From an uncultured Pseudomonadales bacterium (GTDB taxonomy: Bacteria > Pseudomonadota > Gammaproteobacteria > Pseudomonadales > Azotimanducaceae), in the NCBI GenBank assembly GCA_951813515.1, contig OX638346.1, forward strand, positions 3,031,617 through 3,095,616: a stretch of 64,000 nucleotides of DNA. Reading direction: 5' to 3'. Position 1 is the first letter of the stretch; every line of letters starts with the position of its first letter. Below the pieces are notes generated by a model. The model was not told the DNA's origin. It did not search any database and was given only the letters and a program-made list of their open reading frames with translations. A program made the translations under genes and the position numbers. This document shows positions 4,413-29,924 of this stretch, in pieces.

Positions 4413-5516
4413 TCAGATCCGACCCTTCTCCAGGTCCAGGCGCCCGCGGGCCAGGTTGAGTCGCAGGACGTCGCTTGCGCCTTCCGCCAGGCGCATGGCC
4501 CGAACGCGGCGATACAGCGTCTCCAGGGGATGTCCGACGGTCAGCGCCTTGCCGCCGACGAGTTGAATGGCCGTGTCGACGACTTCGCCGACCGCTTCCG
4601 TCGCGAAAACCTTGCAGGCGATGCCTTCGTTCACGGTGTTCTCGCCGTCGTCCGCGAGCCTGGCGGTCCGGTACACCATGCTGCGGGCGGCGTAGGCCTT
4701 GATGCGCAGGTCGGCGTAGCGCAGTCGCACGCCTTCGCGGCCGCCGAGGGGCATACCGCTGCGATGCGGGGCTTTCAGGTGCGCCGCGAGATACTCGAGC
4801 ACCCAGCGCATCAGGCCGACGGACTGGGCGGCGAAAGCGATGCGCGTGTCGCCGATCTGTCGCAGGGCGCGGGGAAGGCCTTCGCCCGGTTTGCCCACGA
4901 TGTGCGCCGCGGGAACCTGGACGTTGTCGAACTCGAACCAGGCATGGTGGGTGCCGTCGAGGGAGCCGAAGACCTGTCTTGTGCGAACCCCCGGGGCGTC
5001 GGTGTCGATGACGACCATCGCGGGACCCTGGCCGTCGATTTCTACCAGAGCGGTGACAAAGTCCGCTTGCGCGCCGCCGGTCACATAGGACTTCTGGCCG
5101 TTGACCGTCAACATGTCGCCGTCGATGCGCCCGCTGGTGGGACGCGTCGCGTCGTCGGGCTCGGTAAAGCCGAAAGCCCCGCGTTTCTCTCCCGCGATGA
5201 GAGGCGCCAGGTATCGGCTCGCTATGGGTTCGTCCGCGCCCGCCAGGACGCCGGGTCCGGGTCCGAATACGGGCAGGTGGGAGAGGTTGTGGCTCGCAAG
5301 GGTGTCTCGAACCACGGTCATGGCGAGCGTGCTCGCCTCGCTGCCCCCCAACGCCCTGGGCTGCGTCATGAAGAAGAGGCCGGTGGCCTTCGAGGCGTCG
5401 ATGATCCGTGTCCGGTTGGCAGAAACGTCGGCCGCGAGAGGCGCCAGCGTGCCGCGCGCGAAGGCGTGGGTCTCGTCGCGCAGTCGGCGCAGTTCAGGCG
5501 TTAGCGATTCCGGCAC
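4413..5516 (-). CDS. Acyl-CoA dehydrogenase family protein
   Basis: The 367-residue flavoprotein has the acyl-CoA dehydrogenase order: helical N-terminal domain, central beta domain (GAFGFTEPDDATRP near residue 135, the FAD/substrate loop) and helical C-terminal domain ending in a region rich in Leu, Arg and Ala. It should take two electrons from an acyl-CoA and pass them to ETF. The catalytic base is hard to assign by eye because the C-terminal helices differ from the short-chain enzymes. It stands alone between the efflux operon and a small membrane protein on the same strand, so the acyl substrate is unknown. Confidence 0.85.
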   Translation of the reverse strand: MPESLTPELRRLRDETHAFARGTLAPLAADVSANRTRIIDASKATGLFFMTQPRALGGSEASTLAMTVVRDTLASHNLSHLPVFGPGPGVLAGADEPIASRYLAPLIAGEKRGAFGFTEPDDATRPTSGRIDGDMLTVNGQKSYVTGGAQADFVTALVEIDGQGPAMVVIDTDAPGVRTRQVFGSLDGTHHAWFEFDNVQVPAAHIVGKPGEGLPRALRQIGDTRIAFAAQSVGLMRWVLEYLAAHLKAPHRSGMPLGGREGVRLRYADLRIKAYAARSMVYRTARLADDGENTVNEGIACKVFATEAVGEVVDTAIQLVGGKALTVGHPLETLYRRVRAMRLAEGASDVLRLNLARGRLDLEKGRI

Positions 5517-5525
5517 TTTGCGCCG

Positions 5526-5885
5526 CTACAGCGTCTGCCACATCAGGAAGGCAACGATGAGGAAACCGCAGAGCACCATGGCGCCGAAAGCGCTGACAAC
5601 GTACATCTCTCCCGTGGCGCGTCGCCGCACCCGGTTTTCGACTTCCTCGGGGTCCTGTGCGGAAGTTGTCGAGGTCAGCCGATAGCGGGTCAATCCATCG
5701 CGTTTCGGCAAACGGACGAAAAGCTCGGGCGTCGCGTCAAGGCGCTCTTTCACGTCCATCATCGCGATTCCGGTACGGCGCGCGATCTGTTGCGGATGCA
5801 GGCCGATCTCCGGTTCTTCGCGAAACACCCGGTGGATCGCAAGAATACGGCGCGTCTTGCCCCAGTAGCGCGGCGTCAGCAACAC
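5526..5885 (-). CDS. Small protein with winged-helix-like N-terminus and C-terminal membrane anchor
   Basis: I do not recognise a named family. From the GTG chosen at 5885 the product has 119 residues. Residues about 10-65 (RRILAIHRVFREEPEIGLHP, then QQIARRTGIAMMDVKERL) resemble a small winged helix. A charged stretch follows, and one strong membrane helix ends the protein (VVSAFGAMVLCGFLIVAFLM). The frame stays open upstream to 6050, but that would overlap the ppk start, and the extra residues are Arg-rich and look untranslated. The GTG has an AGGG eight bases upstream. The gene diverges from ppk with about 155 bases between them. Confidence 0.6.
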   Translation of the reverse strand: MLLTPRYWGKTRRILAIHRVFREEPEIGLHPQQIARRTGIAMMDVKERLDATPELFVRLPKRDGLTRYRLTSTTSAQDPEEVENRVRRRATGEMYVVSAFGAMVLCGFLIVAFLMWQTL

Positions 5886-6040
5886 GGCGCGGGCCCTGTC
5901 AGGGAACGTTCGCTCATGCCGACGATAATAGCCGGACACGGTTTGCCGGGACAGTGGTCCAGAACCGGCCGAAGTACGGCCTGCTATGCGGGCCGAGGGG
6001 TTGTCGTGGCATCGTCGGAGAGTTTTGGTATCTTGCCGGC

Positions 6041-8104
6041 ATGACCGCAAACGTCGACCTCGCCAATCCGGATTTCTACATCAATCGGGAAATCTCCTTT
6101 CTCCAGTTCAATCGGCGTGTCCTCGAGCAGGCGAAGATTGCCGATGTGCCGCTCCTGGAACGGCTTCGTTTCCTGTGCATCACGAGTTCGAATCTCGACG
6201 AGTTCTTCGAGGTTCGCGTGGCGGGTCTGAAGCAGCGATATGCGCTGGGTTCCACGCAGCGGGGCCCGGACAACCTGACGCCGGCGGAACAGTTGCGCGC
6301 CATTTCCCTCGAAGCGCACGCCCTGGTGGAAGAGCAATACCGGGTGCTCAACGACATGATGTTCCCGGCGCTGGAACAGGAGGGTATCCATTTCCTGCAG
6401 GGCGAGCGATGGAACAAGAAGCAGGGCAGGTGGTTGAAGCGCTACTTCAACTACGAACTGGAGCCCATTCTCACCCCCATCGGCCTCGATCCGGCGCATC
6501 CCTTTCCACGCCTCCTGAACAAGAACCTGACCTTCATCGTGACCCTGGACGGCAAGGACGCATTCGGACGCAACAGCGGCATGGCCATCGTGCAGGCGCC
6601 GCGGGCGCTCCCGAGAGTCGTTCGGTTGCCTGAAACCCACGCGGAGTCGCCCAACGACCTGGTGTTTCTTTCCGAGATCATCGAGACCTATGTCGACGAT
6701 CTCTTTTCGGGGATGCGTGTGTCGGGCTGCTATCAGTTCCGCGTGACGCGCAACAGCGACCTGTTCGTGGACGCGGAGGAAGTCGATGACCTGCTGCGGG
6801 CCGTCGAGGGCGAACTGCTCTCGAGAAGGTTCGGGGATGCGGTGCGCCTCGAGCTGGCCGAGGATTGTCCTGGTGATGTCGCACACTTCCTGCAGATGCA
6901 GTTCGACCTGACCGACGACGACGTCTATAGATGCGATGGCCCCGTCAACCTGATGCGGCTGAACATGATTCCTGATGAAGTACCCCGTCCGGATCTCAAG
7001 TACGCGGGTTTCACCCCGCGAACGTTGAGCCGCATCCAGCACGCCTCGGACCTGTTTGCGGCGATTCGCGAAGGAGACATCCTGCTGCACCACCCGTTCG
7101 ACTCGTTTCTGCCGGTGATCGACTTTCTGCGGCAGTCGGCGGCGGATCCGGCGGTGCTGTCGATTCGTCAGACGCTCTACCGCACGGGGGCCGATTCGGC
7201 GGTTGTGAGCGCCCTGATCGACGCGGCGCGCAATGGCAAGGAGGTCCTGGTCGTCATAGAACTGCGCGCCCGTTTCGACGAGGCTGCGAACATCGAACTT
7301 GCCACCAGCCTACAGGAGGTGGGCGCGCAGGTGGTCTACGGCGTCGTCGGATTCAAGACCCACGCGAAGATGTCCATGGTGATTCGCCGCGAAGGCCGGC
7401 GCCTGGCGCGCTATATCCACGTCGGAACGGGCAACTACCATACGCGCACCGCGCGCCTGTATACGGACTACGGGCTATTCACCTGCGACCCGGCGATCAC
7501 CAGGGACGTGGAGCAGGTGTTCAAGCAACTCACGACGATGGGGAAGGCCGGCAAGCTGAAGAAGATGCTGCAGGCGCCGTTCACCCTGCAAAGCACCTTG
7601 CATCGGCACATCGAGAGCGAGATAGCCAATGCCGAGGCGGGCCGTCCGGCGCGGCTGATTGCCAAGATGAACGCGCTGATCGATCCGGAGACGATCCGTG
7701 TTCTCTACCGAGCGTCCCAGGCGGGGGTCAATGTGGATCTCATCGTGCGCGGGCTCTGTGCGCTGAAGCCGGGTATCGAGGGCGTATCGGAGAACATTCG
7801 CGTGATCTCCGTGATCGGTCGGTTCCTCGAGCATACGCGCGTGTTCTATTTCGAGCACGGCGGCGAGCCCTTGATGTACATATCGAGCGCCGACTGGATG
7901 CAGAGGAACTTCTTTGATCGCGTCGAGACGTGTATCCCGATCGAGGACGAGGCGCTGCGCGACTCGCTGATGCGCGACATCAAGCTGTATTTGGACGATA
8001 CTGCGGCATGGGAGCTAAATCCGGACGGCGGCTACCAACGGCGCAAGGGTGGGCGCAAATCTCTCATTGCCCAGGAGCGGTTGCTGGAAGCGGCGCCGGG
8101 TTGA
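6041..8104 (+). CDS. ppk: Polyphosphate kinase 1
   Basis: The 687-residue product matches the usual PPK1 length. It starts MTANVDLANPDFYINREISF, and NREISFLQFNRRVLEQA is the classic N-terminal PPK1 signature. The catalytic half carries KTHAKM, HVGTGNYHTRTARLYTDYG and FLEHTR, which hold the histidines involved in autophosphorylation and catalysis in this family. The enzyme reversibly polymerises ATP gamma-phosphate into polyphosphate. The frame stays open upstream to 5657, but I chose the ATG at 6041 because similarity begins exactly there. It converges on the ppx gene with 26 bases between the stops, an arrangement that pairs polyphosphate synthesis and breakdown. Confidence 0.96.
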   Translation: MTANVDLANPDFYINREISFLQFNRRVLEQAKIADVPLLERLRFLCITSSNLDEFFEVRVAGLKQRYALGSTQRGPDNLTPAEQLRAISLEAHALVEEQYRVLNDMMFPALEQEGIHFLQGERWNKKQGRWLKRYFNYELEPILTPIGLDPAHPFPRLLNKNLTFIVTLDGKDAFGRNSGMAIVQAPRALPRVVRLPETHAESPNDLVFLSEIIETYVDDLFSGMRVSGCYQFRVTRNSDLFVDAEEVDDLLRAVEGELLSRRFGDAVRLELAEDCPGDVAHFLQMQFDLTDDDVYRCDGPVNLMRLNMIPDEVPRPDLKYAGFTPRTLSRIQHASDLFAAIREGDILLHHPFDSFLPVIDFLRQSAADPAVLSIRQTLYRTGADSAVVSALIDAARNGKEVLVVIELRARFDEAANIELATSLQEVGAQVVYGVVGFKTHAKMSMVIRREGRRLARYIHVGTGNYHTRTARLYTDYGLFTCDPAITRDVEQVFKQLTTMGKAGKLKKMLQAPFTLQSTLHRHIESEIANAEAGRPARLIAKMNALIDPETIRVLYRASQAGVNVDLIVRGLCALKPGIEGVSENIRVISVIGRFLEHTRVFYFEHGGEPLMYISSADWMQRNFFDRVETCIPIEDEALRDSLMRDIKLYLDDTAAWELNPDGGYQRRKGGRKSLIAQERLLEAAPG

Positions 8105-8130
8105 CACGGGTCCGCACTGGCTCGCGCCCG

Positions 8131-9657
8131 TTAGGGCGAAAGGTCTTGTGGCGCTCGCTTCGGTATCGCGAGTCGGATCGGCGACCACCGAAGGTACTCG
8201 GCTTCCTGTTCGAGGTCGAGCTGCGTCAGCGGATGCTGGCCAATCCAGTTCCTTGGAAACGACAGTCTGATGAAGTCGTCTTCGGCGCGGACGTCGAAAG
8301 CCGGCAGGGCCACGTCCGACCGGCTGCGATGCAGCACCACGGCGATCCGCAACAGTACGCTGAGCCTCGCGAGATCGAGCGCATCGACGAAGTCTTCGGC
8401 CGGGAACTTGCGCCGGTGGGCGCGCACCAGTAGCGAAAGGCGATGCTGTTCCGGACGCGAGAACCCGGGCATGTCCATGTTGTCCAGCAGGTAACCGCCG
8501 TGCTTGTGGTACTGGCTGTGGGCGATGTCGAGGCCGATCTCGTGTAGCGTAGCGCTCCAGCGCAGCAGGGGGACGAGGTTGGGATCGATATCGTTCCAAT
8601 AGGGTTGCACCCGATCGAGAAGATCCTGCGCCGTCGCCGCGACGCGCCCGGCGTGGTCCTGATCGACGTTGAAACGCCGCGCAAGGTCGAGCACCGTGTT
8701 CTCCCGGATGTCCTGCTCGTGAATCCTGCCCAGGAGATCGTGCAGCAGGCCTTCGCGCAACGCGCCGCCGGATACGGTCAGACGGTCGACGTCGAGGGCG
8801 TCGAACAGGGCCCGTAGTATCGCGACCCCGCCGGGGAATACGGGCGCGCGTTGGGCGTCCACGCTGGCGAAGTCGAGATTCCCGGTGTGGCCGCATTCGA
8901 TCAGCCGCTTCGTGACGTGGTCCAGGCCTTCGCGCGTAATGTCGTTGCCTGCGAGTTCCGACTCGATGATGTCGTGCACGGCGATGATGGTGCCGGAGGC
9001 GCCAACGGCATTGTCCCAGCCGCGGGCAAGAAAGATGCGCTCGAGGACCTCGAACTCCTGCCGCGCGACGCGTTCTGCCGCCGCCATGCCGGTCGCGTCG
9101 ATGCGGCCGTCCGCGAAGTAGCTGTCGGACAGGTCCGCGCAGCCGATATAGAGGCTCTCGGCCAGTTGCGGCTGAAAGCTCTGCCCCAGGATCAGTTCAG
9201 TGCTGCCGCCGCCGATATCTATGACGAGGCGCGTGTCGTGGTTGTCCTCCAGGGAGTGGGAGACGCCGAGGTAGATCAGCCGGGCTTCCTCTCGACCGCT
9301 GATGACCTCCACCTGGTGGCCGAGGATTTCCTCGGCGCGAGCGATGAACTGCTGGCTGTTGCGTGCCTTGCGCAGGGTATTGGTGCCCACCACGCGCACA
9401 TTGCGCTGCGGCAGCAGACGGAGACGCTGACTCAACCGTTCGAGGCATTCCAGTGCGCGGGCGGTGGTCTTGGGACTGAGCATGTTGGCCGGGCCAAGAC
9501 CCTCGGCCAGGCGCACCATTTCCCGGTGTTTGTCGACTACCTGAAGCCGGTCGCCCCAGTCCAGGGCGACGATGAGGTGAAAGCTGTTGGAACCGAGATC
9601 CAGCGCTGCGTAGGTTTGCTTTGCGTCGTTTTGCGGACGGGCGCTGACTTCGGCCAT
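8131..9657 (-). CDS. ppx: Exopolyphosphatase / guanosine pentaphosphatase (Ppx/GppA family)
   Basis: The 508-residue protein has the actin-like ATPase fold of Ppx/GppA. AALDLGSNSFHLIVA near residues 17-31 is the phosphate-binding loop, and VIDIGGGSTELILG near 145 is the second. A C-terminal HD-like helical region contains SATLHEIGLDIAHSQYHKHG. It removes terminal phosphate from polyphosphate or hydrolyses pppGpp, and sequence alone does not separate the two. It is encoded tail to tail with ppk, which favours exopolyphosphatase. The ATG at 9657 starts directly before the conserved first strand. Confidence 0.93.
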   Translation of the reverse strand: MAEVSARPQNDAKQTYAALDLGSNSFHLIVALDWGDRLQVVDKHREMVRLAEGLGPANMLSPKTTARALECLERLSQRLRLLPQRNVRVVGTNTLRKARNSQQFIARAEEILGHQVEVISGREEARLIYLGVSHSLEDNHDTRLVIDIGGGSTELILGQSFQPQLAESLYIGCADLSDSYFADGRIDATGMAAAERVARQEFEVLERIFLARGWDNAVGASGTIIAVHDIIESELAGNDITREGLDHVTKRLIECGHTGNLDFASVDAQRAPVFPGGVAILRALFDALDVDRLTVSGGALREGLLHDLLGRIHEQDIRENTVLDLARRFNVDQDHAGRVAATAQDLLDRVQPYWNDIDPNLVPLLRWSATLHEIGLDIAHSQYHKHGGYLLDNMDMPGFSRPEQHRLSLLVRAHRRKFPAEDFVDALDLARLSVLLRIAVVLHRSRSDVALPAFDVRAEDDFIRLSFPRNWIGQHPLTQLDLEQEAEYLRWSPIRLAIPKRAPQDLSP

Positions 9658-9882
9658 CTGGGCGAAATTCTACTCCGTCGCCGTCGCTCGCTACCACCTC
9701 GTGTCGAATCAATCGGAATCGACGAGCGGGGAGACTGCGCGCTGTGAGCCAGCGTCGCGACCTGCCGCCTGGCGTAAGCGAAACCGCATGGTTCACGTTC
9801 CCCGCGCGCATGACGAGTGCGGAGCAAGGGGAAGATCGGCACCAATCGGTGACCGCAGATTGATGGCCTAGGCTGGGTCTGA

Positions 9883-24260: not shown

Positions 24261-24944
24261 ATGAGCGAAGTGCTGCGTGCCGATTCCAGGATCGTTGAGT
24301 TTCCGACGTCGGACGGCAGACCGGTGGCGGAGACCCCACTCCACTACAAGCGCCTGTCGGACCTGGCGTATTGCATCACGACGTTCTTCAAACGGCGGGC
24401 GGACGCCTATGTCGGCGTCAACATGTTGGCGTACGACGATCCAAAGGAGCCGAGAAGACATCTGTCGCCGGATATCTTCGTGGCCTTCGGCGGCGCAAGC
24501 GAAAAAGAACGCGAGCGAGAGATCTACAAGCTCTGGGAGGAGCCGTCGCCAGCGTTCGTGCTGGAGGTGACCTCAAAGAGCACGCGCAGGGAGGACGAAC
24601 GCAAGAAGGCGCGCTACGCGAAGTGGGGCGTGGCCGAGTACTTCATGTATGACCCGCGCGGGGAATACCTGGCGCCGGCGCTGCAGGGTTTCGAACTGTC
24701 CAGCGGGGGCTACCGATCGATGCTCGAGCGCACGCTTGCCAATGGCGAACAGGGCTTGTCCAGCAGGAGACTCGGCCTTGATCTGTGGTTGGATGGCCCC
24801 GCGCTGCGCCTATACGATCCCGTTGCGGAGCGAAACCTGTTGACGCCGGATGAGACTCGACAACGCCTTGCGGCGGCCGAGATGGAACTGTCCGAGCTGA
24901 AGGCGCAGATCGGTGCCGCATCGCCCGAGAAGGACGGGCGGTAG
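24261..24944 (+). CDS. Uma2-family (DUF820) putative restriction endonuclease-like protein
   Basis: The 227-residue protein has the Uma2 core: LSPDIFVAFGG (Asp), FVLEVTSKSTRREDERKKAR (Glu-x-Thr-Ser-Lys) and YAKWGVAEYFMYDPRGEYL, which together form a PD-(D/E)xK-type active site. These proteins are common in large-genome and sponge-associated bacteria, and their biological role is poorly defined. A short coiled tail (RLAAAEMELSELKAQIG) ends it. It is 130 bases upstream of the FGE gene on the same strand. Confidence 0.85.
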   Translation: MSEVLRADSRIVEFPTSDGRPVAETPLHYKRLSDLAYCITTFFKRRADAYVGVNMLAYDDPKEPRRHLSPDIFVAFGGASEKEREREIYKLWEEPSPAFVLEVTSKSTRREDERKKARYAKWGVAEYFMYDPRGEYLAPALQGFELSSGGYRSMLERTLANGEQGLSSRRLGLDLWLDGPALRLYDPVAERNLLTPDETRQRLAAAEMELSELKAQIGAASPEKDGR

Positions 24945-26133: not shown

Positions 26134-26220
26134 TGTTGCCGGCAACGCCGTTGTTCACGCCTTTCAGGTGATGCTCGTGCACACCTTCCTATTGCTTGGA
26201 CACATCGATCACGCAGATGG

Positions 26221-28848
26221 CTATCTTCCGGCCCGTTTCTGTTGTGAGGGTCGCGACGAAGCGTTGTCTAGCGTTTGAAGCACCTGCTCAACATTGGCAT
26301 GGCGGAAATTTGCCTCCCGGCCAACCGCTCGCTGCCTGGTCTGCGCGCTCCGAATTCTTTCTCGCCAAGGACTCAACGATTCGGTTGCAGCGAGGACTTC
26401 CAGAGCTTCCGATGCTTCGGTCGACGCAATCGCCGAGAGTCTTCCTATAAGAAGTTCCACCAGCTCGGCTATCTCCATCTTCTCGGTGGCGATGAGTGCG
26501 CCAACTCCGGTCATGGGGCTCGAGGGCCTGTACGAACGCCCCAAAGATCGGATCAGGAGATCAAGTTCGGGCACATTCCACTTTCCAATCCACACTGCAT
26601 TGCCGTCGGAAGCAAGGTGCGAGGCGACGTGACGGACCCGTCTTTCGCCCCCTCCTGAGATCTCATTCTGCAATCGACTGGTGAACGCCGCCGGCTCCAC
26701 CAGCAATCCGGTGCAGCACCAGCAAATGCGTTGCGCCACGTCCATGCTTCGGATTGCCATTTTCCGATTGATGAATTGAACAAGTTCCTCCGCGGGACAA
26801 TGCCGAATCGCCGCCCGGAGCATGTGCTTCAGCGCGGGAAGTTGTCTCGACGTGGCACGTGGGGGGAATGATCGAAGTAACTGTAGTATCGCCAATGCGG
26901 CCACGGCAGCGTGTTGGTCATCGGCAAGTTCGGACAGTGTCGGGTGATCCACAATTTTCCGAGTCCAGCTTTGCCGAACCGTTCGGACGAGGATGTCCGC
27001 AACCAGGTCGGGTCGCTGCGACACGATTGAGGCGTACCACTCGATCTTCCCCGCCGGACGCAACCTGTTGAAATGGATGGTGAGCGCAAGGCGCATCTGT
27101 CTTTCGTCGAGTTCTGCGGGATCGAGTTCTTCCAGCCCAGCCATGAAAGGACAACTCAGATAGTGCACCTCGCCCTTTGATGCGAGCCGGACAATCTCGG
27201 ACTCTTCGGGCAGGTCGCTGCGAACGGTTGTTGAGCGAAAGGCCGCAATGACCGTGTCAACGAGTTCCCCGTCGCCTTCCAGCAGGTTCAGCAGTCGGCT
27301 TCCTGGCGTGTCGCCCTCGGCGTCGATGTAGTCGCCGAAGTACGCGGTAGCCAGGTGATGGAGAAGTGCAGGCGGCGCCCGGTTCTCCCGCAGGAAGGGC
27401 GCCTGGGACGCAACATGGTTGTGCCAGGCTTCTCGACGCTGCCGTTCCCCGGCATCGTATTCTCGGCTTGGTTCGACGGTTGTAGCCACCCTTTGTTCTC
27501 GAACCTGTAAGTCGTCTCCTGCCCGTTCCCCAAGCGCCGGGCGTTCGACCAGTCGCGCATTGAGGAACTTATTGCCAACTTCTTCCGAATCAAACCAGTG
27601 TCGTGCCGGGACCGACAGGAACTCCTCGATAGAAATGCCATCGCGTCCAACGAGCAGCGACCGTTCGGGGTTGAAACGCTTCGCGAACTGCCCTCGACCA
27701 CTGAGATTGATGCCGCGTCCGTTGCTCTTTACTTCGATTGACACCAGTCTCCGTCCTCGCTCGAGGACGAAATCCACCTCGTGGTTTCCGCGACGCCAGT
27801 AGTAGAGACGGACTTCGGGCATGCCGGTGTTGTACAGGTGTGCGCCGACGGCGCTCTCTACGAGTCTTCCCCAGAAGGTTCGGTCCGCCTGGGCCTCTTC
27901 GAACGTGTATCCCGAATGCACAGCCATCAATCCGGTGTTCAGTACGTTCAGCTTCGGGCTCGACGCGCGCTGGCGCCGGGCCAGACCTTCGTACTTGGAA
28001 AGTCCCGCCACCAGTCCAGCCCTTTCCAGCAATTGCAGGTAGCGGGCCAACGTCGTCGTATTGCCTGCGTCGTCGAGCTGGCCGACCATCTTGCTATAGG
28101 CAAGAATCTCGCCGGAGAACTCGGCGCTCAGTTCGAACAGCCGCTTGAGTAGCGCGGGTTTGTCGATTCGGTCCATGGCTACGATGTCGCGCTCGATATT
28201 CGGCTCCACCAGCGCGCTCGCCACGTAGTCGCGCCAGCGGGGCTCTTCGTGAATGTACGGGGCAGCGCCCGGGTAGCCACCGAAGTAGACGTACTGCGGA
28301 AAGTCGAAACCGAACGCCGTTGCCATTTCCTGGAAGGACCAGTGCGCGAGCCTGATGGATTCGAAGCGCCCGGCAAGGCTCTCGGTAGTGCCCTTGTGCA
28401 TCAATAGAGGGCTGGAGCCGAGCAGCACGACGTGCAGGGCTCGACGTTCCCGGCGGTCGGCGTCCCACAGTCCTTTGACAGTCTCCGACCAGTTTGGAAT
28501 CTTCTGAATCTCGTCGAATACCAGGACGAAGCCACGTTGTGATCGAGCAGCTTGAATTCGCGCGCGCTCCCAGGCCTGCGCGACCCATCGGGAGTCGCGT
28601 TCACCTGAGAACGTGGCCCGAGTGAAGCTCGAGGGCGCATCGTCCGGCAGGTTTCGAATTCGGGGGAGGGCCAATGACTCCGGTTCATCAACCGGCAGGT
28701 ATAGACTGGGCTGGTCAAGATGCTCGAGGGTTTGGTCGACAAGGGTTGTCTTACCGCACTGCCGGGGCCCCGTGACGAAAGTCAGCCGCTGCGGTGACTC
28801 ATTGAGCCGGTCGAGGAGCGTAGAGACGTGTGCACGCTCGAAACTCAT
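26221..28848 (-). CDS. AAA ATPase/DUF4143 protein with large helical C-terminal extension
   Basis: The first 415 residues or so follow the AAA_14 plus DUF4143 layout. Walker A is GPRQCGKTTL (near residue 27) and Walker B is VLVFDEIQKIP (near 112). A winged-helix-like middle follows, then a PD-(D/E)xK-like segment (NHEVDFVLERGRRLVSIEVK) ending near GRDGISIEEFLSVPARHW. Members normally stop there, at about 400 residues. This one continues for some 450 more, beginning ERQRREAWHNHV and RENRAPPALLHHLATAYFGD, all predicted helical. From memory this tail resembles C-terminal regions of NACHT/STAND proteins, which needs a search. The promoter overlaps a 38-base palindrome directly upstream. Confidence 0.8.
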   Translation of the reverse strand: MSFERAHVSTLLDRLNESPQRLTFVTGPRQCGKTTLVDQTLEHLDQPSLYLPVDEPESLALPRIRNLPDDAPSSFTRATFSGERDSRWVAQAWERARIQAARSQRGFVLVFDEIQKIPNWSETVKGLWDADRRERRALHVVLLGSSPLLMHKGTTESLAGRFESIRLAHWSFQEMATAFGFDFPQYVYFGGYPGAAPYIHEEPRWRDYVASALVEPNIERDIVAMDRIDKPALLKRLFELSAEFSGEILAYSKMVGQLDDAGNTTTLARYLQLLERAGLVAGLSKYEGLARRQRASSPKLNVLNTGLMAVHSGYTFEEAQADRTFWGRLVESAVGAHLYNTGMPEVRLYYWRRGNHEVDFVLERGRRLVSIEVKSNGRGINLSGRGQFAKRFNPERSLLVGRDGISIEEFLSVPARHWFDSEEVGNKFLNARLVERPALGERAGDDLQVREQRVATTVEPSREYDAGERQRREAWHNHVASQAPFLRENRAPPALLHHLATAYFGDYIDAEGDTPGSRLLNLLEGDGELVDTVIAAFRSTTVRSDLPEESEIVRLASKGEVHYLSCPFMAGLEELDPAELDERQMRLALTIHFNRLRPAGKIEWYASIVSQRPDLVADILVRTVRQSWTRKIVDHPTLSELADDQHAAVAALAILQLLRSFPPRATSRQLPALKHMLRAAIRHCPAEELVQFINRKMAIRSMDVAQRICWCCTGLLVEPAAFTSRLQNEISGGGERRVRHVASHLASDGNAVWIGKWNVPELDLLIRSLGRSYRPSSPMTGVGALIATEKMEIAELVELLIGRLSAIASTEASEALEVLAATESLSPWRERIRSAQTRQRAVGREANFRHANVEQVLQTLDNASSRPSQQKRAGR

Positions 28849-28850
28849 CG

Positions 28851-28888
28851 TGTTACATTATTGAGTAAATTAACTCAATAATGTAACA
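28851..28888. promoter_or_regulatory. 38-base near-perfect palindrome, probable operator
   Basis: Two 16-base arms, TGTTACATTATTGAGT and its exact reverse complement, flank AAATTA. The element ends two bases before the start codon of the DUF4143 ATPase gene and overlaps the predicted -10 box. It is AT-rich in a GC-rich neighbourhood. It could bind a dimeric repressor, possibly autoregulatory, or form a hairpin at the mRNA 5' end. Confidence 0.85.
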
Positions 28889-28931: not shown

Positions 28932-29924
28932 ATGGCGAATGGCAGGGTGATGCTCAAGGTCACGAAAGAAGAAAACGTCAGTGGCGACCGGAAGGCCGCC
29001 AGCCAGGGCTTCGGTCGTGTCAACGCCGGGTTCGCGGTGCATTTCGAGCCGGAAGGGCAGCGGGACGCCGCCTGTGACTATTTCGAGAAGCACGGGTTCG
29101 TTGCTCTGGACAATTGCCTGATTCCGGCGGAGATTGGGCATCTGAACGAGTTCTACGACCGCACGCAACGCGAGCGGCCGGAAGCCTGGGGCCTCTCCGG
29201 CGAAAGGAAGTACTTCCAAAGAAATGCGGGCATCATGTTTTCGCAGCCGCTGCTCGACCATCCGGAACTCGATCCCTACACCCGGCACCCGCGCTCCTAC
29301 CCGGTAGTCGCCCGGATCTTGGGAGGCGAAGAACGCGTCCGCTTCAGCGAGTTCAACTTCCGTGAAACACCGGTCGATGCGGGCAAGGGCGGCATGAATT
29401 TTCATCATGACAAGGCCGCTCCCGATCGTTTCGAACGGCGACCGTACAATCCCTGCGACTGGTTGTGCGCCATTCACTACCTGACCGACGTGGATCCGAC
29501 GACGCCGGCCTTCTGTGTCGTCCCGAACAGCAACCGCTACGTTACGCTCGGGGACGCGTTCGAGGGACTGGGCTCGGATTATCACGAGGTTCCAGTCTAC
29601 GGACGGGCGGGAACCTGCGTGCTGTATGACACCGCGATCTTCCATACTCGGCTGGACGGCGACGGCAGCAAGCGCCGCCGTACCTGGCATCAATACTATG
29701 CGCGCGGGGGCTGGCTCACGAGTTGGCTGCCGGGGGTCGGCAAATACCGACGCCAACCCTCGCCTGTCCTGACCGACTGGAACCTGTTTCCGGAACGCCT
29801 GGCGCTGCATCCGGACCCCGGGAAACGGCTGTTCTTTTCCCACTGGAACACCGCCCAGTGCGAGTGGGTCGCATCCGGATTCGATCCGGAAGTGCGCCGT
29901 TTGACGCCGCGTGGCGAGTATTGA
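28932..29924 (+). CDS. Phytanoyl-CoA dioxygenase (PhyH) family protein, 1
   Basis: The 330-residue protein belongs to the Fe(II)/2-oxoglutarate PhyH family. The iron-binding HxD is visible in MNFHHDKAAPD, the distal His in AIFHTRLDGD, and the 2-oxoglutarate-binding Arg probably in the following KRRRTWHQYYARGG. PhyH enzymes hydroxylate many small molecules, and the substrate is unknown. It is on the plus strand, facing the end of the 17-gene minus-strand block. ATG 28950 is an alternative start. Confidence 0.85.
   Translation: MANGRVMLKVTKEENVSGDRKAASQGFGRVNAGFAVHFEPEGQRDAACDYFEKHGFVALDNCLIPAEIGHLNEFYDRTQRERPEAWGLSGERKYFQRNAGIMFSQPLLDHPELDPYTRHPRSYPVVARILGGEERVRFSEFNFRETPVDAGKGGMNFHHDKAAPDRFERRPYNPCDWLCAIHYLTDVDPTTPAFCVVPNSNRYVTLGDAFEGLGSDYHEVPVYGRAGTCVLYDTAIFHTRLDGDGSKRRRTWHQYYARGGWLTSWLPGVGKYRRQPSPVLTDWNLFPERLALHPDPGKRLFFSHWNTAQCEWVASGFDPEVRRLTPRGEY

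Follow-up and report, generated by a model that had tools for sequence, protein, structure and literature searches.

A DUF4143 gene joined to the helical region of an EruA-like NACHT gene, very probably through deletion in a two-gene operon

How did a DUF4143 ATPase come to carry a long helical extension, and does the composite protein still work? The question is raised by an open reading frame in the 64,000-nucleotide stretch of DNA analysed here (the window), which belongs to a genome (G000) consisting of one contig of 4.3 Mb. A sequence-only reading had taken the encoded protein for a defence candidate with an inherent ATPase-nuclease-sensor design. We confirmed the frame as a genuine gene; it is uninterrupted, and its GC content by codon position is coding-like along the whole length.

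Pfam places AAA_14 at residues 21-175 (2e-24) and DUF4143 at residues 219-376 (2e-29), both far above cut-off, and the PADLOC model for PDC-S01, PDLC04791, spans residues 1-419 end to end with 529 bits. The full-length profile match, the AAA_14 Walker motifs and the DUF4143 core together assign this half of the protein to PDC-S01/DUF4143. Walker A (GPRQCGKTT), Walker B (DEIQ) and the EVDFV...IEVK stretch are intact, as the sequence-only reading had recognised, and their residues are invariant or nearly so in an alignment of 14 close homologues. Since these homologues are only 415-426 aa long, the ~450 extra residues of the window protein are unusual, in line with the earlier remark that such proteins normally end near residue 400. 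The module shows an omega of 0.13 (window versus the related loci L020 and L021), and AAA_14 is the only P-loop in the window protein. About 17 DUF4143 genes are present in G000.

Residues 420-875 gave no Pfam match. In NCBIfam, however, residues 461-864 match positions 734-1142 of NF058535, the 'NACHT domain-containing antiphage protein EruA' (E=6e-43, 147 bits). The resemblance of the tail to NACHT sensor regions, noted in the sequence-only reading, was thus borne out by a profile search as homology to the EruA helical region. A search with the tail alone returned two near relatives (72-77% identical), and matches in other genomes of the phylum lie mostly within long frames of ~1,355-1,396 aa. 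In L021 (gammaproteobacterial MAG RHO1_bin_43), the intact orthologous gene (5892-9860) encodes a protein of 1,323 aa, P0001, with a NACHT domain, the helical region and a C-terminal PD-(D/E)xK motif. P0001 matches NF058535 over its full length (909 bits, 5e-273), just below the curated cut-off of 1000 bits, a whole-protein score that is exceeded by L024, L111 and L116 (1146, 1318 and 1440 bits) and that the window protein, with its 147 bits, does not reach. A score under the cut-off was rejected as a sign of DUF4143 linkage, because the solo relatives L025-L027 also fall under it.

An alignment of 13 full-length relatives revealed a conserved NACHT-type Walker A (GxPGxGKT/S), a conserved Walker B (LFIDGLDE) and a conserved C-terminal core (RADxR...ExK...QLI) typical of PD-(D/E)xK nucleases; the NACHT and PD-(D/E)xK assignments in EruA-like proteins derive from these motifs and the NCBIfam name. 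The NACHT domain, present in all 13, is missing from the window protein, and of the PD-(D/E)xK-like core only an out-of-frame 3' scrap is left. The helical region (model ~734-1142), in which conserved positions are kept, is the only one of the tested EruA features that the window protein possesses. Judged by these features, the window gene is to be regarded as a derived form and not as a member of EruA, and a search of G000 gave no further EruA-like copy. The putative antiphage function of the EruA-like parent is taken from the NCBIfam name; our search found no primary paper for antiphage EruA/HyoA, and a paper titled EruA in E. coli concerns an unrelated regulator.

The tail is predicted to be an all-helical, HEAT/ARM-like solenoid with moderate confidence (pLDDT mostly 60-88 over residues 460-860), which agrees with the helical character noted from the sequence. 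Model quality was poor for the DUF4143 half, moderate for the tail and low to moderate for the NACHT half. Foldseek searches with these models of low-to-moderate confidence retrieved only generic HEAT/ARM solenoids (Z up to 9.8); the weak matches included Avs3 and a STAND protein. Against solved-structure profiles, the EruA-like alignment gave no meaningful match and the DUF4143 alignment matched recA P-loops only. A PADLOC search with the EruA-like protein matched no family, Avs included, and an Rfam search of the region gave no match. Avs and bNACHT STAND proteins carry their effector at the N-terminus. The parent gene resembles them in its NACHT-type switch and helical sensor, whereas the PD-(D/E)xK motif of EruA-like proteins resides at the C-terminus. 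The window protein itself departs from the Avs/bNACHT STAND layout in having no NACHT/STAND NTPase alongside the sensor.

The same locus in L021 consists of two genes, one for a DUF4143 protein (4624-5895, 423 aa, 89% identical) and one for P0001, which starts at 5892 and thus overlaps the first by 4 bp. Synteny extends to both sides of the locus when the window is compared with L021 and with L020 (MAG COS4_bin_29). The window lacks two segments of L021, one at 5883-8022 (~2.1 kb), which encodes NACHT together with the initial half of the helical region, and one at 9315-9791, which accounts for most of the nuclease. We consider it very probable that deletion turned a two-gene operon, DUF4143 plus EruA-like, into the fused ORF of the window. 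In the ancestor, an operator-like palindrome would have been followed by the DUF4143 ATPase gene and then by an EruA-like STAND gene overlapping it by 4 bp, whose product would have comprised an N-terminal NACHT ATPase, a long helical sensor and a C-terminal PD-(D/E)xK nuclease motif. The ~2.1-kb deletion would have taken out NACHT as well as the first half of the helical sensor, leaving the remainder in frame after DUF4143 residue ~419, and a second deletion would have removed the nuclease. Of the EruA-like 3' remnant, only the first part lies inside the ORF, in the wrong frame and followed by the TAG codon, while the rest lies beyond the stop; in tblastn, residues 1288-1323 of P0001 match window positions 26192-26299. 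An inherent ATPase-nuclease-sensor design does not hold, as DUF4143 and the NACHT protein are encoded by two overlapping genes in orthologous and paralogous loci and the layout in the window is secondary, by deletion.

Table 1 Features of the DUF4143-EruA fusion locus and its surroundings in window coordinates.
Feature	Position	Strand	Evidence or remark
Uma2 gene (Pfam PF05685)	24261-24944		between FGE and crotonase genes
Out-of-frame remnant of the EruA-like 3' end, would read RKIAICVIDVSKQ	26189..26262	(-)	DNA alignment with L021 9792 onward
Window ORF	26221..28848	(-)	875 aa; ATG start; TAG stop at 26221-26223
EruA-like helical (HEAT-type) region, ~ residues 712-1143 of P0001	26263..27563	(-)	DNA 79% identical to L021 8023-9314; NF058535; all-helical model
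Junction, residues ~420-428	27564..27591	(-)	no match detected to L020 junction or L021
AAA_14/DUF4143 module, residues 1-419, PDC-S01 type	27592..28848	(-)	Pfam; PADLOC PDLC04791; conserved motifs; omega
38-bp palindrome TGTTACATTATTGAGTAAATTAACTCAATAATGTAACA, operator-like	28851..28888	(.)	2 bp before start codon; conserved upstream of DUF4143-EruA operons

In principle, the join could also be an assembly chimera at residue ~415-420, where the known relatives of the first half end. An assembly fault was excluded, because the independently assembled L020 MAG contains a similar fusion of 848 aa with slightly different ends and ~82% DNA identity to the window over the ORF. In addition, synteny with L020 and L021 holds on either side of the join, and we regard a chimera as exceedingly improbable. 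The sequence-only reading had itself envisaged a tail that is really a separate gene, attached by an assembly join near residue 415; the separate-gene origin proved correct, while the join is genomic.

The two fusions differ at their 3' ends, and a comparison of their junction fillers detected no homology; the fusions may go back to one event or to two. The L020 and L021 flanks are 84-99% identical on both sides, whereas the L020 tail is ~83% identical to the window tail versus ~77% to that of L021, a local flip of the phylogeny over L021:8023-9314. The dS between window and L020 is 0.46 for the tail versus 0.50 for the flanks. As the L020 tail is closer to that of the window and its dS is flank-like, the window and L020 tails appear to descend together. 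The pattern suggests that the EruA-like gene of L021 was re-acquired by recombination or allelic replacement.

Is the tail still of use? Its omega for window versus L020 is 0.29 (bootstrap 0.21-0.40), with branch values of 0.37 for the window (0.21-0.73, loosely bounded) and 0.25 for L020. Near-invariant tail positions are kept at 18 of 19 sites in the window and 17 of 19 in L020, and the family-profile scores of both tails nearly equal that of the intact L021 tail. The tail contains no stop codons; if the fusion is shared, ~7 would be expected from neutral drift per 0.2 substitutions per site. If one old fusion is common to the window and L020, selection has acted on the tail from then on, and the absence of decay suggests that the fused protein still works. 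We lean slightly towards this conclusion, with a role as a regulator or reduced sensor appearing most likely. Alternatively, two separate recent deletions would account for equally intact tails even in the absence of selection. The tail would then be a passive leftover, a translated readthrough of an EruA fragment that has not decayed since the deletions in the two strains were recent and separate, and DUF4143 would be the sole working part. This explanation, which we hold to be possible but short of probable, fits the non-homologous fillers, the dissimilar 3' ends, the loss of both active EruA modules and the further broken or split copies in our survey (L112; L058). It sits less well with the common descent of the two tails at the rate of the flanks and, if the fusion is shared, with the missing stops. 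Since NACHT and nuclease have both been deleted, the window protein is no longer capable of the EruA reaction; it would act at most through DUF4143 with a tethered HEAT-type solenoid.

The arrangement seen in L021 is not confined to this locus. DUF4143 lies directly upstream of an EruA-like gene in L021 and 12 further loci (L022, L023, L056-L064, L110), with DUF4143 proteins 54-65% identical to that of the window in the latter, and in nearly all mapped pairs the DUF4143 stop overlaps the EruA-like start by 4 bp. A tree built from 27 NACHT regions groups the 13 DUF4143-linked proteins without exception in one clade of 16 rows (support 99/99). The other three rows are exceptions to the linkage, one of which, L109, is truncated by the end of its contig. 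EruA-like genes that are more distant, plasmid ones included, stand alone, and some adjoin AbiE, Abi, SIR2 or Ppl genes. The parent locus is an apparent two-gene anti-phage operon. It differs from known EruA in that the parent genes follow a DUF4143 gene, which was not the case for the solo genes of this type that we inspected (e.g., L024, L111, L116). It also differs from PDC-S01, which is listed as a single-gene candidate and is here translationally coupled or fused to (part of) an EruA-like gene. EruA and PDC-S01 have each been described already; on their coupling, a limited literature search, which is no proof of novelty, found no paper. In L058 (7063-11899), three overlapping genes encode DUF4143, a NACHT half of 588 aa and a helical-plus-nuclease half of 605 aa, corresponding to a split EruA-like gene.

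The palindrome preceding the window gene, with the dyad core TATTGAGTAAATTTACTCAATA, is found before all 15 examined DUF4143-EruA operons or fusions. About ten of these have a strong dyad score, and L057, L058, L061, L062 and L063 carry a more degenerate version recognised by eye. At up to two mismatches, the palindrome is present in a single copy in the genome. It is absent before the 12 solo EruA-like genes examined, and versions of it also precede related DUF4143 genes that were found independently of EruA (L077, L079, L080, L082, L083). The palindrome accompanies DUF4143 and not EruA, and this co-occurrence makes DUF4143 its likeliest binder. Dyad scores were higher for 30 DUF4143 entries, not all of them independent, than for 34 window controls (Mann-Whitney p = 7e-6). 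One control reached a high score of 17; it is presumably the divergent neighbour at 28932, which shares the window palindrome.

While gene order, overlaps, deletion, motifs and palindrome can be read from the DNA itself, we infer how the parent operon might work. The DUF4143 protein would bind the palindrome and control expression, and the EruA-like protein would sense a phage trigger with its helical region, oligomerise through NACHT and cut DNA with the C-terminal nuclease. What the window protein retains is an intact ATPase/nuclease-like DUF4143 module to which a sensor solenoid is tethered. Tentatively, we propose that DUF4143 (PDC-S01) is a self-regulated partner that licenses EruA-like NACHT nucleases while binding its own promoter palindrome, and that the fused DUF4143-solenoid proteins are pared-down but functional forms in which regulator and sensor stay in contact while the suicidal effector is gone. 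In a different scenario, which we judge unlikely, the fusion product serves specifically in defence, as the sequence-only reading had proposed, with the solenoid detecting a phage component and activating the PD-(D/E)xK-like site of DUF4143. The catalytic-looking DUF4143 residues are all intact, the tail is sensor-like and conserved and DUF4143 is a PADLOC defence candidate, all of which would suit such a function; however, nuclease activity of DUF4143 is putative, just two strains were seen to carry the fusion and other loci have an evident effector on the EruA side.

The parent operon, which offers a possible role for the very common but unvalidated PDC-S01, is more interesting than the fusion in the window. 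PDC-S01 is reported to rank fourth in frequency among the predicted defence systems of prokaryotes, and most PDCs await validation (PMC12988326). One of its subfamilies is translationally coupled, behind its own operator-like palindrome, to a relative of EruA, a protein designated antiphage by NCBIfam, and this gives rise to the testable hypothesis that DUF4143 serves a STAND nuclease either as DNA-binding regulator or as partner.

From the fusions, the EruA solenoid (residues ~712-1143) also emerges as a unit that can be separated from the rest. Together with the split gene in L058 and stand-alone genes for the helical domain, they identify it as a separable module whose boundaries recur near residues 712-760. 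The stand-alone genes (L104:8725-10029, L105:8529-9767, L106:8302-9444, L107:8460-9590) encode 377-435 aa and match no Pfam family; two of them, from two related genomes, share the same gene context.

The Uma2 nuclease gene that had been pointed out ~1.3 kb away across the FGE gene is indeed located there. Its link to the system was rejected for lack of conservation, as neither L020 nor L021 has a Uma2 gene between the FGE and crotonase genes.

Among the other DUF4143 genes of G000 (L002, L003, L004, L005, L007, L008, L124, L127, L128, L130), most have a long dyad of ~20-40 bp. The sequence of these dyads is different each time, and they are centred ~10-45 bp before the start codon. Such upstream dyads may serve DUF4143 genes in general as regulatory or recognition elements.
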